Assembly: GCF_003946885.1 (NCBI RefSeq)
Contig: NZ_RWKQ01000008.1
Location: 1 to 60,997, forward strand
From: Specibacter cremeus
GTDB lineage: Bacteria > Actinomycetota > Actinomycetes > Actinomycetales > Micrococcaceae
Direction of reading: 5' to 3'
Length of the DNA stretch: 60,997 nt
The number at the start of each line of letters is the position of its first letter. Within the stretch, counting starts at the first letter, position 1. A program made the translations under genes and the position numbers. The notes beneath the pieces are model-generated. The model was not told the origin of the DNA. It made no database searches and was given only the letters and a program-made list of their open reading frames with translations. This document shows, in pieces, positions 51,455-57,658 of the stretch.

Positions 51455-51530
51455 TAGTATTGAAACACCGTCGGCCGGCGAGGTCCGCGCGGTCTTGTAT
51501 TAGCACGTCTTGTATCAGCACGTTGTGTCA
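51455..51530 (+). promoter_or_regulatory. pdxS promoter region with tandem 15-bp repeats
   Basis: A -10-like TAGTAT is at 51455-51460. Downstream lie two near-identical 15-mers, GTCTTGTATTAGCAC (51492-51506) and GTCTTGTATCAGCAC (51507-51521), followed by a partial third copy GTTGTGTCA. They end 28 bp before the pdxS start. Direct repeats of this kind could be sites for a PdxR (MocR-type) regulator, but no such gene is in the window. Confidence 0.5.
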
Positions 51531-51557
51531 ATCCGAATCGTCCCAAGAGGGGTCTTT

Positions 51558-52460
51558 GTGTCTACACCTGATGTAACGCCGGTAACCGGCAGCAGCCGTG
51601 TCAAGCGGGGCATGGCCGAAATGCTCAAGGGCGGCGTCATTATGGACGTCGTCAACGTCGAGCAGGCCAGGATCGCCGAGGACGCCGGCGCCGTGGCCGT
51701 GATGGCCCTCGAGCGTGTCCCGGCGGACATCCGCGCCCAGGGCGGCGTGTCGCGCATGTCCGATCCGGACATGATCGACGCGATCGTCGCGGCCGTGTCC
51801 ATCCCGGTCATGGCCAAGGCGCGGATCGGCCACTTCGTCGAGGCGCAGGTGCTCCAGTCCCTGGGCGTGGACTACATCGACGAGTCCGAGGTGCTGACCC
51901 CCGCCGACTACGCCCACCACATCGACAAGTGGAACTTCACGGTCCCGTTCGTCTGCGGTGCCACGAACCTGGGCGAGGCGCTGCGCCGCATCAACGAGGG
52001 CGCGGCGATGATCCGGTCCAAGGGCGAGGCCGGCACCGGCGACGTCTCCAACGCCACGGGCCACATGCGCCAGATCCGCGCCGAGATCGCGCGCCTGTCC
52101 TCGCTGCCCGAGGACGAGCTGTACGTGGCCGCCAAGGAGTTGCAGGCGCCGTACGAGCTCGTCAAGGAGATCGCGGCCACCGGCAAGCTGCCCGTGGTGC
52201 TGTTCACCGCCGGCGGCATCGCCACCCCGGCCGACGCGGCCATGATGATGCAGCTGGGCGCGGACGGCGTGTTCGTCGGCTCGGGCATCTTCAAGTCCGG
52301 CAACCCGGCCCAGCGCGCGGCCGCGGTGGTGAAGGCCACCACGTTCTACGACGACCCGAAGGTCGTCGCGGACGTCTCCCGCGGCCTGGGCGAGGCCATG
52401 GTCGGCATCAATGTCGCCGACATCCCGGAGCCGCACCGCCTCGCCGAGCGCGGCTGGTGA
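51558..52460 (+). CDS. pdxS: Pyridoxal 5'-phosphate synthase, PdxS subunit
   Basis: A 300-residue TIM-barrel synthase making PLP from ribose 5-phosphate, glyceraldehyde 3-phosphate and ammonia. It shows [46 protein letters not shown] (catalytic Lys) and [19 protein letters not shown]. Ammonia comes from PdxT, encoded 4.5 kb away at 56966. The GTG at 51558 has AAGAGGGG upstream. Repeat cluster 4 begins at its stop codon. Confidence 0.97.
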
Positions 52461-52648: not shown

Positions 52649-53659
52649 CTACCGGGTGACGGCCTGCATGGTCAGGTCGTCCAGTTTCGGCAGTGCGTGG
52701 CGGAGCCGGTGCTCGGCCTCGTGCACGGTCTGTTCCGCGGCGGCCAGCGTCGCGTCCGCCACGACCAGGACGGCGGCGCCTTGGAGCCGGTGGCCCACCC
52801 AGCGCAGCTGCAGCCTGTTGACGCCCACGATGCCGGGGGAGTGCTCCAGGGCGTGCTCGGCCCGGGCGACGAGGTCGGGCTCGATGCCGTCCATCAGGCG
52901 CCGGCCGATGCTGCGCACCGTGCCCCACAGCAGCACGATGATCGCTGCCGAGATCAGCAGCCCGACGACCGGGTCGGCCAGGGGGAAGCCGAGCATGACA
53001 CCGCCGGCCCCGAGCACGACGGCCAGCGACGTGAAGCCGTCGATGCGCGCGTGCACGCCGTCGGCGACGAGCGCGGCGGAGCCGATCTGCCGGCCCACCC
53101 GGATCCGGTACACGGCCACGGCCTCGTTCCCGGCGAACCCGATCAGCCCGGCCGCCACGACCCACCACAGGTTGTGCAGCGGCTGCGGGTGGAAGAACCG
53201 GTCCACGGACTGCCAGGCGGCGACGACGGCCGAGAGCGCCACGACGGCGACGATGAACAGGCCGGCCAGGTCCTCGGCCCGGCCGTAGCCGAACGTGTAG
53301 CGGCGGGTTGCCGCGCGGCGGCCCAGGACGAACGCGATCCACAACGGCACGGCGGTGAGGGCGTCGGAGAAGTTGTGGATGGTGTCCGCCAGCAGGGCCA
53401 CCGAGCCGCTGATCAGCACGACCAGGAACTGCAGCACCGTGGTGCCCAGCAGCAGGAACAGGCTGATCTTCAACGCCCGCACGCCCCGGGTGCTGGCCTC
53501 CAGCGCGTCGTCGATGGAATCCGCGGAGTCGTGCGTGTGCGGGGCGAACAGCTCGTACAACTTGCCCTTGAACCCGGTGTGGTGGGTGTGGGAATGCCCG
53601 GCGTGGTCGTGGTCATGGTCATGTGGGTGGGCGTGGGTGTCCTGCCGGGTGGCGCTCAT
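52649..53659 (-). CDS. Cation diffusion facilitator (Zn/Cd/Co exporter)
   Basis: A 336-residue CDF transporter with six membrane segments. The N-terminus is His/Asp-rich (HAHPHDHDHDHAGHSHTHH). The first metal site is VALLADTIHNFSDAL (HxxxD) and the second is VADGVHARIDGFTS (DxxxHxxxD). A cytoplasmic C-terminal domain follows. It overlaps its ArsR-type regulator by 4 bp, forming a metal-sensing efflux pair. Confidence 0.92.
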   Translation of the reverse strand: MSATRQDTHAHPHDHDHDHAGHSHTHHTGFKGKLYELFAPHTHDSADSIDDALEASTRGVRALKISLFLLLGTTVLQFLVVLISGSVALLADTIHNFSDALTAVPLWIAFVLGRRAATRRYTFGYGRAEDLAGLFIVAVVALSAVVAAWQSVDRFFHPQPLHNLWWVVAAGLIGFAGNEAVAVYRIRVGRQIGSAALVADGVHARIDGFTSLAVVLGAGGVMLGFPLADPVVGLLISAAIIVLLWGTVRSIGRRLMDGIEPDLVARAEHALEHSPGIVGVNRLQLRWVGHRLQGAAVLVVADATLAAAEQTVHEAEHRLRHALPKLDDLTMQAVTR

Positions 53660-54048
53660 GCGGATTCCCGTTCGGACCGATCGTGGGCTGCCCCATCGTG
53701 GACAGCCCGATGGTGCGCGGGCAGCCCGCCGAGCGCGTGCTCGGCCTGGTAGATGGCGTCGGCGACGAGCTGCCGGGCGTGTTCGTTTTCCAGCCGGTAC
53801 AGCACCTTCGTGCCGTCCTGCCGGGTCGAGACCATGCGGGCCAGACGCATCTTGGCCAAGTGCTGCGACACGGCGGCCGGCGATTTTCCGACGACGTCCG
53901 CCAACGCCCCCACGGCCATTTCGCCGTCACGGAGGGCCAGGATGATCCGCACGCGGGTGGCGTCGGCCAGCATGGCGAACACCTCCACGGCGAGCTCCAC
54001 GTACTGGCTGTCGGCCGTCAGGCCGCAAGTCTTCTTATCTGCATGCAT
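53656..54048 (-). CDS. ArsR/SmtB-family metal-responsive repressor
   Basis: A 130-residue winged-helix regulator: MLADATRVRIILALRDGEMA and the recognition helix SPAAVSQHLAKMRLARM. Residues for a C-terminal metal site are present (ADAIYQAEH, PAHHRAVHDGAAHD). CGL near the N-terminus has a single Cys, so a Zn/Co/Ni or Cd sensor is more likely than arsenic. It is cotranscribed with the CDF exporter it presumably controls. A perfect dyad overlaps its own start codon. Confidence 0.9.
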   Translation of the reverse strand: MHADKKTCGLTADSQYVELAVEVFAMLADATRVRIILALRDGEMAVGALADVVGKSPAAVSQHLAKMRLARMVSTRQDGTKVLYRLENEHARQLVADAIYQAEHALGGLPAHHRAVHDGAAHDRSERESA

Positions 54049-54166: not shown

Positions 54167-56851
54167 TTACTTTTGGGTGAACACCATCGACATCGGCGTG
54201 GTCTCGGTGGTCTGTCCCTGCGGGTTGTCGCGGAAGATGCCCTCAACGACGTCCTTGACCAGGGCCGTGTCATGGCCCAGCACGACGACGCCCAGGTCGT
54301 TGGCGTCCATGATGGCCGTCCCGGCAAAGGTGGCCGCATGCTCGGCCGGCACCGTTTGGCGGACCAGCGCGCTCAACCGGGCGGCCACGCCGTCGGGGTC
54401 CTTGGGCGCGTACTTCACCGAATGCGTGGACGTGCCCACCTGGTAGCCGGCGGCGCCGTCGATCGCGTTGATGTTATGGCCCACCACCTCGTAGAACACG
54501 CCAGACTTGCCCTGCAGCTTGCCGATCACGCTGCGCGCGGCCGCATAGCAGATGCGCGGCAGGCCGACCTCGTCGATGGCCAGCTGCATGGACCACGGGC
54601 TGGCCAGCCCGATGCCGCCCGGGTTGCGGGTGACGAACCGGCTCAACAGGCGGGCCGATCGGCTGACTTTGATGTCCCACACCGGGATGGATCGGCCCTG
54701 CGTCATGGCCACGATCTTCTCCGACACGAACAGGTACCAGGGGGTGCCGGCCGTGGCTTTGACATGCCCGTCGCCGGCCGCCGGGAGACCGTCGAAGAAG
54801 CGCTGCACATAGGTCATGACCGTCGGGTCGAAGTCGGTCTCCTTGTAGAACACCTCGGTGCGCAGCGGGTACCGGCGGTAAGTGAGGCCGTTCGCCGGGA
54901 CGGTGATGTCCAGGTTCTTCTCGGCGTTCGGGACGTAGTCGCTCTTGCCCTCGATGCCGGCCTTGGTCTCCGGCTCGTCAAAGAACTCGCGCAGCCACAG
55001 CTCGGTGTTCAGCAGGCGCCAAAACACCATGGTGGAGCCGCCACTCTTGCCGCTGAGGTACTCCTCGAACGCATAGATGACCGCATCCTGGTCCCAGTAC
55101 GGGCGGTGCTCGAACGACGACGAGAGGAAAATCTCGTAGATCTTCTCCTTCATGAGCGTGAACCACTCGGCCTCCGGCGTCGTGAAGCCGATCTTGTTGC
55201 GCCGGTTGCTGACCATCTCCGGCAGCAGGCCGCGGGTGGCGTCGCGCAGGATCCGCTTGTTCCAGCCGCCCTTGATGATGGACTCGTCGTCGAGGCTGAA
55301 CAGGTACTTCACGACCTCCTTGTCCAGGAACGGCACGCGCCCCTCCAGGGAGAACCGCATGGTGTTCTTGTCCTCGTACCGCAGCACGGCCGGCAGCGAC
55401 TTGTGGAACAGGTCGTCGATCAGGCGCAGCTTCAGGTTGTCCGGGATGTTCGTGAACTTCTCGCCCTTGAACTTCGCCGTGAAGTCCTTGTTGAGCAGCC
55501 CCGCGATGCCGACCTCCTTCTTCAGGGTCAGCATCGACTTCAGCCGGAAGCGGCCCAGCCGGTACAGGATGTCGGCGCTCGAGGCCATCTCCCTGGCCAA
55601 CTTGGCGTTCTCGCCGCGCGCCTTCAGCTGGCGCAGGTAGGCAAAGTAGTACGGGATGTAGCCGGCCATCATCTCGTCGGCGCCCTGGCCGTCCAGGAGC
55701 ACCGTCACATGCTTGGACGCCTCCTGCATGACCCGGTACTGGGCATACGGGCCGGAAGAGATGATGGGCTCCTCCTGGGTGCGCACGAAGTCCTCCAGGT
55801 CCTCGGCGAACTCGTGCGCCTTGGGCAGGATCTTGTGGCTGGTGACGTTGCCGCGGCACGTGGCCAGCACGGCGTCGGCGTACTTCTCCTCGTCATTGAT
55901 GGAGTTGGGGAAGATGGCCGAGAACGTCTGCTGGGAACCGCCGAGCGAATCGGTCGCGTCCGCCTTCTCCTGCATGAGCTTGTTGATGGTGACGACGACG
56001 GCGGACGAGTCCAGGCCGCCGGACAGGGCCGTGCCGACGGGCACGTCGGACTGCAGTCGCAGCCGCACGCCCTCGGTGAAACGGTCCCGGTACTCGTCGA
56101 TGACGGCCTGCGAGTATGGCGTCTCGGCCGTGGCCAGCTCCGCCAGTTCTTCCTTGAACCGGGTGAACGGGCTGATGGTGACCGTGCCGGCCGGGCCTTC
56201 CGCCGTGTCGACGGTGTTCAGGACCAGTTTCTCGCCGGGCATCAGCTTGTAGATGCCGTCGAAGAACGTCTCCGCCTCCTCGTCGTGGATGCGGAACTGC
56301 AGGTAGCGGTACAGGATCCGCTCGTTGACCTTCTTCTCCAGTTTCCCGGCGGCCAGCAGCGGCTTGATCTCGGAGCCGAACAGGAGCGTGGGCGCCTCGG
56401 CCGTGCCCGCGGTGGCGTAGTACAGCGGCTTGATGCCGAAGTGGTCACGGGCCAGCACCAGCCGGTTGTTCCGCTTGTCAAGGATCGCGAAACCGAACAT
56501 GCCGTTGAAGCGGTCGAACGCCGCGTCGCCCCATTCCTCGTACGACTGCAGCACCACTTCCGTGTCGGACACGGTGGAAAACGTCCGGCCCAGGGCCTCC
56601 AGCTCGGTGCGCAGGTCCCGGTAGTTGTAGACCTCGCCGTTGTACACCAGGATCGTCTGCCCGTCGGCGCTGATCATCGGCTCGTGCCCGCCGGCCCGGT
56701 CGATGATGGACAGCCTGCGGTGCGCCAGCCCCACGTTGCCGTCCGCGTGGATTCCGTCGCCGTCGGGCCCACGGTGCACGATGCACGCATTCATGTCCCG
56801 CAACAGGGCTTCGTCTTCCCCGTACCCGTAATATCCGGCGATTCCGCACAT
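54167..56851 (-). CDS. asnB: Asparagine synthetase (AsnB) fused to a coenzyme F420-0:glutamate ligase-like (CofE) domain
   Basis: One uninterrupted 894-residue frame. Residues 1 to about 625 are a complete AsnB: Cys2 glutaminase (MCGIAGYYGYGEDEALLRDM, VYNGEVYNYRDLR, FAILDKRNNRLVLARDHFG) and the synthetase domain with the pyrophosphate loop TALSGGLDSSAVVV, then VLLDGQGADEMMAGY and RVPFLDKEVVKYLFS. After a linker, about residues 660-894 match the standalone F420-0:gamma-glutamyl ligase-like family: LFVSEKIVAMTQGRSIPV, RFVTRNPGGIGLASPWSMQL, YEVVGHNINAIDG, MDANDLGVVVLG and IFRDNPQGQTTETTP. Plain AsnB is 610-660 residues. Both halves look intact. The added domain suggests a second amide-forming or regulatory activity; the true substrate is unknown. 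The ATG at 56851 exposes Cys2. The gene is on the opposite strand between pdxS and pdxT. Confidence 0.85.
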   Translation of the reverse strand: MCGIAGYYGYGEDEALLRDMNACIVHRGPDGDGIHADGNVGLAHRRLSIIDRAGGHEPMISADGQTILVYNGEVYNYRDLRTELEALGRTFSTVSDTEVVLQSYEEWGDAAFDRFNGMFGFAILDKRNNRLVLARDHFGIKPLYYATAGTAEAPTLLFGSEIKPLLAAGKLEKKVNERILYRYLQFRIHDEEAETFFDGIYKLMPGEKLVLNTVDTAEGPAGTVTISPFTRFKEELAELATAETPYSQAVIDEYRDRFTEGVRLRLQSDVPVGTALSGGLDSSAVVVTINKLMQEKADATDSLGGSQQTFSAIFPNSINDEEKYADAVLATCRGNVTSHKILPKAHEFAEDLEDFVRTQEEPIISSGPYAQYRVMQEASKHVTVLLDGQGADEMMAGYIPYYFAYLRQLKARGENAKLAREMASSADILYRLGRFRLKSMLTLKKEVGIAGLLNKDFTAKFKGEKFTNIPDNLKLRLIDDLFHKSLPAVLRYEDKNTMRFSLEGRVPFLDKEVVKYLFSLDDESIIKGGWNKRILRDATRGLLPEMVSNRRNKIGFTTPEAEWFTLMKEKIYEIFLSSSFEHRPYWDQDAVIYAFEEYLSGKSGGSTMVFWRLLNTELWLREFFDEPETKAGIEGKSDYVPNAEKNLDITVPANGLTYRRYPLRTEVFYKETDFDPTVMTYVQRFFDGLPAAGDGHVKATAGTPWYLFVSEKIVAMTQGRSIPVWDIKVSRSARLLSRFVTRNPGGIGLASPWSMQLAIDEVGLPRICYAAARSVIGKLQGKSGVFYEVVGHNINAIDGAAGYQVGTSTHSVKYAPKDPDGVAARLSALVRQTVPAEHAATFAGTAIMDANDLGVVVLGHDTALVKDVVEGIFRDNPQGQTTETTPMSMVFTQK

Positions 56852-56951
56852 ACTGCCGTTCCTCATCTGTAGTTCGTCAGTCCACCGACAATCCTACGGG
56901 GTGGGTCCGGCACCCCCACGCACCGACGCCGTTTTGCGCAGTGGCGCCCAC

Positions 56952-56966
56952 TATGATGAATGCTTG
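56952..56966 (+). promoter_or_regulatory. Promoter of pdxT, probably leaderless
   Basis: TATGAT at 56952-56957 is a near-consensus -10 box. Its expected start site falls at about 56964-56966, at the GTG of pdxT, and there is no ribosome-binding site. A leaderless transcript, common in actinobacteria, fits. Confidence 0.5.
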
Positions 56967-57658
56967 TGACTTCGCAGACCCCCAACACCCCGTCCGTCTC
57001 CCGCCGCCCGCTCGTGGGCATCCTGGCGTTGCAGGGCGACGTGCGCGAGCACGCCCGCTCGATGGAGGAGGCGGGGGCGCGGGTGACGACCGTGCGCCGC
57101 CCGGGCGAGCTGGCCGCCGTCGACGGCCTCATCATCCCCGGCGGGGAGTCGACCACCATCGACAAGCTGACCCGCATCTTCGGCCTGGCCGAACCGCTCA
57201 GGGAGCGCATCGCGGCCGGCCTGCCCGTGTACGGCAGCTGCGCCGGCATGATCCTGCTGGCCGACGACATCGCCGACCCGGCCCTCGACCTGGCCGGCAA
57301 CCCGCAGCAGACGCTCGGCGGGTTGGACATCACCGTCCGCCGCAACGCCTTCGGCCGGCAGGTCGACTCGTTCGAGACCGAGCTCGCGTTCACCGGCCTC
57401 GCGCCGGCCGGGACCCCGGAAACGCCCGTGCACGCCGTGTTCATCCGGGCCCCGTGGGTGGAGCGCGTCGGCGAATCCGTGCGGGTCTTGGCATCCGTCG
57501 AACTGCCCGGCGACCCGCGGGCCGATAGAATTGGCGCAGAAGTCCATGCGGTGGCCGTTCGTTCCCAGCACCTGCTGGCGACCTCCTTCCATCCGGAAAT
57601 GACCGGGGAGCGCCGCATCCACGACCTGTTTATCCGAATGATTAGAGGGGAAGCGTAA
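56966..57658 (+). CDS. pdxT: Pyridoxal 5'-phosphate synthase, glutaminase subunit PdxT
   Basis: A 230-residue class I glutaminase supplying ammonia to PdxS. It has [30 protein letters not shown], the nucleophile Cys in [13 protein letters not shown] and the His/Glu dyad in [15 protein letters not shown]. The GTG at 56966 was chosen because a -10 box just upstream predicts a leaderless start; an ATG at 56960 is the alternative. It is 2 bp from yebC. Normally pdxT directly follows pdxS; here 4.5 kb separate them. Confidence 0.94.

Follow-up and report, generated by a model that had tools for sequence, protein, structure and literature searches.

The window analysed here is a stretch of 60,997 nucleotides from Specibacter cremeus (contig NZ_RWKQ01000008.1). 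In it, a single minus-strand reading frame (54167-56851) encodes, with zero internal stops, a protein of 894 residues that joins an AsnB-type enzyme to a C-terminal domain resembling CofE, the F420-0:gamma-glutamyl ligase. Met1 of the sequence MCGIAG lies at 56851 and the stop codon ends at 54167. There is an alternative in-frame ATG 15 bases 5' of this start, at 56866; since Cys2 is expected directly after the first Met, 56851 is the likelier start. An earlier note on this DNA had described an intact AsnB (Cys2, SGGLDSS) continuing without a stop into the CofE-like domain, two halves of amide-forming enzyme types in one chain, and these observations were borne out. Both halves are present in one frame at 46 of 46 other GTDB loci (L031-L076), and MCGI and SGGLDSS are likewise found in all 46. 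Thus an assembly error, which the earlier note had considered as a source of the fusion, was rejected. By their titles, 45 of these loci come from Micrococcaceae genera or from metagenome-assembled genomes (MAGs); the carriers are Arthrobacter, Sinomonas, Paenarthrobacter, Pseudarthrobacter, Psychromicrobium, Tersicoccus, Acaricomes and Micrococcaceae MAGs. The remaining one (L035) is titled Sporosarcina beigongshangi. Its fusion is 86% identical to that of the window; probably either the record is mistitled or the wrong sample was sequenced.

The fusion is flanked by pdxS (51510-52460, plus strand) and pdxT (56960-57658, plus strand). The placement between these two genes given in the earlier note holds as a position, but pdxS is separated from the fusion by genes for a CDF cation transporter and an ArsR/SmtB-type regulator (52649-54048, minus strand), the ends of which overlap by a few bases.

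Table 1. Features of the fusion gene, in positions of the window
Feature	Position	Strand	Basis
AsnB/CofE-like fusion gene, 894 residues and stop	54167..56851	-	reading frame
Glutaminase domain, residues 29-167 (PF13522/PF13537 stretches)	56351..56767	-	domain scan
MCGIAG, catalytic Cys is residue 2	56834-56851	-	motif reading
Asn_synthase domain PF00733, residues 253-621	54989..56095	-	domain scan
PP-loop SGGLDSS, residues 277-283	56003..56023	-	motif reading
EEPIISSGPY, residues 360-369, aligned near TIRAS of E. coli AsnB; no Arg	55745..55774	-	HMMER alignment
CofE-like domain, residues 633-894 as cut in this analysis	54170..54955	-	PF01996 and fold
SEKIVAMTQGR, residues 710-720, conserved motif	54692..54724	-	alignment A1
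AIDGAA, residues 796-801; Asp is domain D166, invariant in A1 and A2	54449..54466	-	alignments
MDANDLG, residues 848-854; first Asp is D217, invariant; aligns with ITDTN Asp of A. fulgidus CofE	54290..54310	-	alignments
DNPQGQ, residues 875-880, conserved motif	54212..54229	-	alignments

The assignment of the C-terminal half to the CofE family (PF01996), made in the earlier note from motifs, stood in part at the level of sequence profiles. Searched alone, residues 633-894 matched PF01996 with an E-value of 4.9e-4, but the score of 20.1 bits is below the curated cut-off of 25. In the scan of the full-length protein at E 1e-3 the family was not listed, and no NCBIfam model, TIGR01916 included, matched the domain at E <= 1. 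Two alignments were made: A1, with 18 rows, was the input for the structure model, and A2 is broader and was also used as a profile. All 18 members of A1 matched PF01996 at E <= 0.1 (best 2.8e-15) and three of them matched TIGR01916 at E <= 1; from A2, 16 of 17 members matched PF01996 at E <= 0.01. The relatives at L146 (46.8) and L204 (47.8) pass the PF01996 cut-off.

The structure model (mean pLDDT 83.6) agreed with the assignment. A Foldseek search with it returned CofE of A. fulgidus at all of ranks 1 to 5 (E 7.5e-6 to 1.0e-4), followed by E 1.4 at rank 6. In VIA-align the Z scores of CofE were 13.9 (2phn), 13.7 and 13.3, with 18% identity over the aligned fold, and the structure ranked next scored 4.0. 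According to the model, the C-terminal part has the CofE fold. The A2 profile also found CofE chains among the PDB sequences (E 9e-4), aligning D217 of MDANDxG with the Asp of ITDTN in the A. fulgidus enzyme. D166 and D217, neither of which varies in A1 or A2, may be metal ligands. With the A1 profile no CofE chain was found among the PDB sequences at E <= 10; its match to 43 residues of a type III pantothenate kinase (E 0.0098) was taken as chance.

In the N-terminal half, the glutaminase and Asn_synthase domains extend up to residue 621, and the glutamine-hydrolysing asparagine synthase model TIGR01536 is matched with 410.9 bits against a cut-off of 267.1. At the place corresponding to the TIRAS stretch of E. 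coli AsnB the fusion has no Arg. The Arg of TIRAS presumably binds Asp. The aspartate-binding residues of AsnB are referred to as 'D and R' in PMC8554201. AsnB-type enzymes amidate meso-diaminopimelate (mDAP) of the peptidoglycan in several bacteria (PMC8554201, PMC4632607), and the AsnB half of the fusion is probably a wall amidotransferase as well.

The two halves could instead make separate small molecules, asparagine by the AsnB half and a glutamyl or other conjugate outside the peptidoglycan (a folate, an osmolyte or a cofactor) by the CofE-like half. The fusion is the only protein above the asparagine synthase cut-off in its genome, and in Chlamydia a CofE homologue takes the place of FolC (PMC1971073). 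Yet folC is present here (353.3 bits, cut-off 162.65), so a folate role is unlikely, and no AsnS above its cut-off was found in the genome, so that Asn-tRNA is probably made by transamidation. Separate products would also leave unexplained the distribution and gene exchange described below; we regard them as quite improbable. A role in F420 synthesis was set aside too: PF01996, the only F420-related family sought genome-wide, has no member besides the fusion domain, which agrees with the lack of F420 context reported in the earlier note.

The occurrence of the CofE-like domain (C-domain) was surveyed in 148 genomes of the family, 297 of the order and 394 of the class, the family and order samples overlapping. 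Within the family, 37 genomes have the C-domain and 35 have the AsnB half (E <= 1e-150), all 35 among the 37. The two other carriers belong to genus g15; their protein, 509-519 residues long, contains the C-domain and, judged by reading, no more of AsnB than its tail. The 37 carriers of the order sample comprise 5 from the family of the window, 23 with fused genes (families f11 and f17) and 9 with stand-alone genes (family f19). In the class sample 16 genomes had matches; G596 carries a fused frame 890 residues long, and the matches in four f38 genomes are weak relatives.

Outside the family of the window the AsnB part is often eroded. Six of the eight f11 loci have neither the Cys motif nor the PP-loop pattern and retain the C-domain motifs. 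Nine of the 23 fused f11/f17 genomes lack the PP-loop pattern in any frame, and one more (G418) has it in a different frame. All 23 retain DANDxG and DNPxGQ, and 22 retain SEK..A..QGR. In a 49-row tree of the C-domain, five changes are needed to account for dead or lost AsnB, and the starred branches force at least three for the 'fused dead' group. The repeated loss of the AsnB motifs next to a persisting CofE-like part makes amidation look like an optional, later step. It does not support the idea of the earlier note that an amidated or aspartyl product is channelled into a second ligation or that a free glutamyl or aspartyl conjugate is made. In G418 (L159, 6937-9722) the AsnB part and the CofE-like part occupy two frames that overlap. 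This is a frameshift or a sequencing error in one genome, and intact relatives exist.

A clue to the function came from a comparison with MurT/GatD, which amidates the alpha-carboxyl of D-glutamate (D-Glu) on lipid-bound peptidoglycan precursors (PMC3266927). MurT was scored by MurT_C (PF08353) in the same genomes as the C-domain. In the family sample 58 genomes have PF08353, 37 the C-domain, none both and 53 neither; the corresponding numbers for the order are 99 (98 above the cut-off), 37, none and 161. Taken as a union, the two samples contain 69 carriers of the C-domain and 141 of MurT with an overlap of 0. Independent draws would give overlaps of 14.5 (family) and 12.3 (order), with hypergeometric P values of 2.4e-10 and 8.7e-8 that ignore relatedness. 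Relatedness alone is, however, a poor explanation because five genera each hold species of both kinds (carriers/MurT genomes: g26 5/2, g42 13/4, g95 1/1, g59 8/3, g52 1/2). MurT was also missing from all ten further genomes searched, namely G596, four of f38, those of loci L077, L078 and L074 (Sinomonas atrocyanea) and the two of g15 already in the family set. The S. cremeus genome itself has no PF08353 match, and the fusion protein matches neither MurT_C nor GATase_3 at E 1e-3. As the carriers with an eroded or absent AsnB (g15, f19 and the AsnB-dead members of f11/f17) lack MurT as well, the CofE-like part is the likely substitute for MurT.

Besides this exclusion there is an exchange in place: in two families other than that of the window, the CofE-like gene often lies where relatives have murT-gatD. 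Of the 14 MurT loci retrieved, the two from f17 (L202, L203) were left out of the comparison with carriers. In all six f19 carriers fetched, rpoD is followed by the CofE-like gene, the two overlapping by 4 bases in four of them; in all five f19 MurT genomes fetched it is followed by murT-gatD. In g42 the fusion, in three of the five fetched carriers (L154, L155, L159), and murT-gatD, at all four MurT loci (L192-L195), have common surroundings: dapA and RNase J to one side and further shared genes to the other. No clean exchange was seen in g95, where the carrier L156 and the MurT locus L196 have two gene clusters in common. The catalytic Cys of GatD is kept at nine of nine loci outside f19 and is Gly at five of five loci in f19. 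Hence the pair that is replaced in f19 should not draw ammonia from glutamine, and amino-acid coupling would be the simplest alternative for this MurT and its Cys-less GatD. At these five loci (L197-L201) gatD lies behind rpoD-murT, Gln replaces His in three and MurT is divergent; possibly a MurT pair has turned into an amino-acid ligase. In f19, genes that read as alanine-racemase-like stand next to murT-gatD or close to the CofE-like gene (L197 8216-9954, L147 11779-12831, L164 5540-7251), and they might supply a D-amino acid for the wall.

Together, the exclusion of MurT and the exchange in place point to the alpha-carboxyl of peptidoglycan D-Glu, which did not figure in the earlier note. 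We consider it reasonably probable that the CofE-like half attaches an amino acid, probably glycine, to this carboxyl and that the AsnB half amidates it; in this reading we infer that the substrate is D-Glu, that glycine acts as the nucleophile, in which order the steps follow and that AsnB amidates the added residue. The CofE-like half would activate the alpha-carboxyl of D-Glu with a nucleoside triphosphate and couple it to the amino group of the amino acid. Ammonia released from glutamine by the AsnB half would then amidate the new terminal carboxyl, giving D-Glu(Gly-NH2). With AsnB eroded or missing, the substituent would stay a free acid, like the D-Glu(Gly) of Micrococcus luteus, in whose peptidoglycan glycine is found on D-Glu (PMC11534333, PMC8269130).

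The same exclusion and exchange would be expected of a new D-isoglutamine synthase in which the CofE-like half activates the alpha-carboxyl of D-Glu, ammonia is all that the AsnB half contributes, and the product equals that of MurT/GatD; a ligase combined with a glutaminase is also the layout of that pair. But the AsnB PP-loop, which should be needless for ammonia alone, is kept in 46 of 46 loci (L031-L076), carriers without a working AsnB retain the CofE-like part, the f19 gene replaces a GatD without catalytic Cys, and D-Glu of M. luteus bears glycine and not an amide (PMC11534333, PMC8269130). This makes such a synthase unlikely. Still less probable is that the CofE-like part attaches some other compound at a different carboxyl of the wall precursor, MurT/GatD having become superfluous only indirectly. 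The evidence for the D-Glu carboxyl is indirect, and many genomes have neither system, but the exchange at one chromosomal place in f19 and g42 and, again, the glycine on D-Glu in M. luteus (PMC11534333, PMC8269130) argue against it.

Several points weigh against the coupling of glycine to D-Glu followed by amidation. As 53 of the 148 family genomes and 161 of the 297 order genomes have neither system, g15 genome G014 among them, loss of MurT is widespread and may account for part of the exclusion. The MurT matches of f19 are weak, one of seven (G368) being below the cut-off. The exchange comparison leaves f17 aside; two of the five fetched g42 carriers (L160, L161) have the fusion elsewhere in the genome, and murT-gatD of g26 (L190, L191), in the family of the window, lies away from the pdxT locus. 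The AsnB half, as the sole TIGR01536 match above the cut-off in its genome, could still synthesise asparagine. CofE itself adds glutamate, and an amino acid other than glycine could be added here as well. That the g15 genome G124, with the CofE-like part kept and the AsnB core lost, belongs to M. luteus is a presumption. A 1970 study reportedly found glycine amide in murein from Arthrobacter athrocyaneus, today called Sinomonas atrocyanea. S. atrocyanea (L074, L075) carries an intact fusion; if that study is right, a working AsnB would go with amidated glycine and a lost AsnB with free glycine. Our literature searches, which left most subscription journals outside coverage, found nothing on glycine amide in connection with Arthrobacter and no murein study of Sinomonas (PMC10394333 contains none of the wall terms sought).

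The same searches returned no account of an AsnB-CofE fusion or of a CofE homologue in peptidoglycan synthesis, and no gene for the glycine-adding step, in line with the earlier note, which knew of no characterised enzyme with this architecture. Katz et al., listed among the references of PMC4632607, reportedly studied the incorporation of glycine into Micrococcus peptidoglycan in 1967, and we know of no gene for this step. What is new here is a predicted function for a combination of known kinds of domains. With CofE the C-terminal domain shares the fold, the invariant Asp aligned with that of ITDTN and the expected chemistry, formation of an acyl-phosphate followed by attack of an amino-acid amine (PMC10861534). 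It differs in being only 18% identical over the fold, below the Pfam cut-off and fused to AsnB, and in a distribution tied to the absence of MurT. MurT/GatD has the predicted target, the pairing of a ligase with a glutaminase and, in f19 and part of g42, the chromosomal place in common with it, but consists of a Mur ligase and GATase_3 instead of AsnB and PF01996, without any common Pfam domain. A3alpha peptidoglycan is of the Lys type. It is found in the fusion carrier Sinomonas (PMC6617354), unlike the mDAP substrate of AsnB/LtsA. These AsnB-type enzymes also amidate wall precursors but are described as unfused and acting on the epsilon-carboxyl of mDAP (PMC8554201, PMC4632607). Chlamydial FolC2 (CT611) is a precedent for a CofE homologue with a non-F420 substrate (PMC1971073); it stands in for a missing folC, whereas folC is present in the fusion genome.

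The fusion and its CofE-like domain are a specific candidate for the glycine-adding step, which has been studied since the 1960s, and the genera with species of either system offer a natural experiment. In a wider sense, the chances are slightly in favour of a CofE-fold ligase being the enzyme that adds glycine to the alpha-carboxyl of D-Glu in Micrococcus and relatives, with several swaps with MurT/GatD in actinobacteria, a fused AsnB capping the glycine as an amide in the lineage of the window, and MurT with a dead GatD also acting as an amino-acid ligase in f19. If true, the CofE fold would gain a substrate in the cell wall, and some F420 ligase annotations in genomes that lack F420 would be explained.

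Some further observations concern the context and the distant relatives. Spread by plasmids and a role in defence were rejected (no plasmid match and no PADLOC model at E 1e-5). Gene neighbours vary between families, and operon context was uninformative before the MurT loci were compared. Stand-alone relatives with 31% identity occur in two Patescibacteria records (L077 7983-8684, L078 2-679), each 5' of a gene that reads as release-factor-like; there is no MurT match in those genomes. The f38 proteins (L176-L181, L205-L208) are distant CofE-like proteins from a genus with genomes of 6-8 Mb, MurT being found in none of the four genomes; one of these, G546, has three matches.

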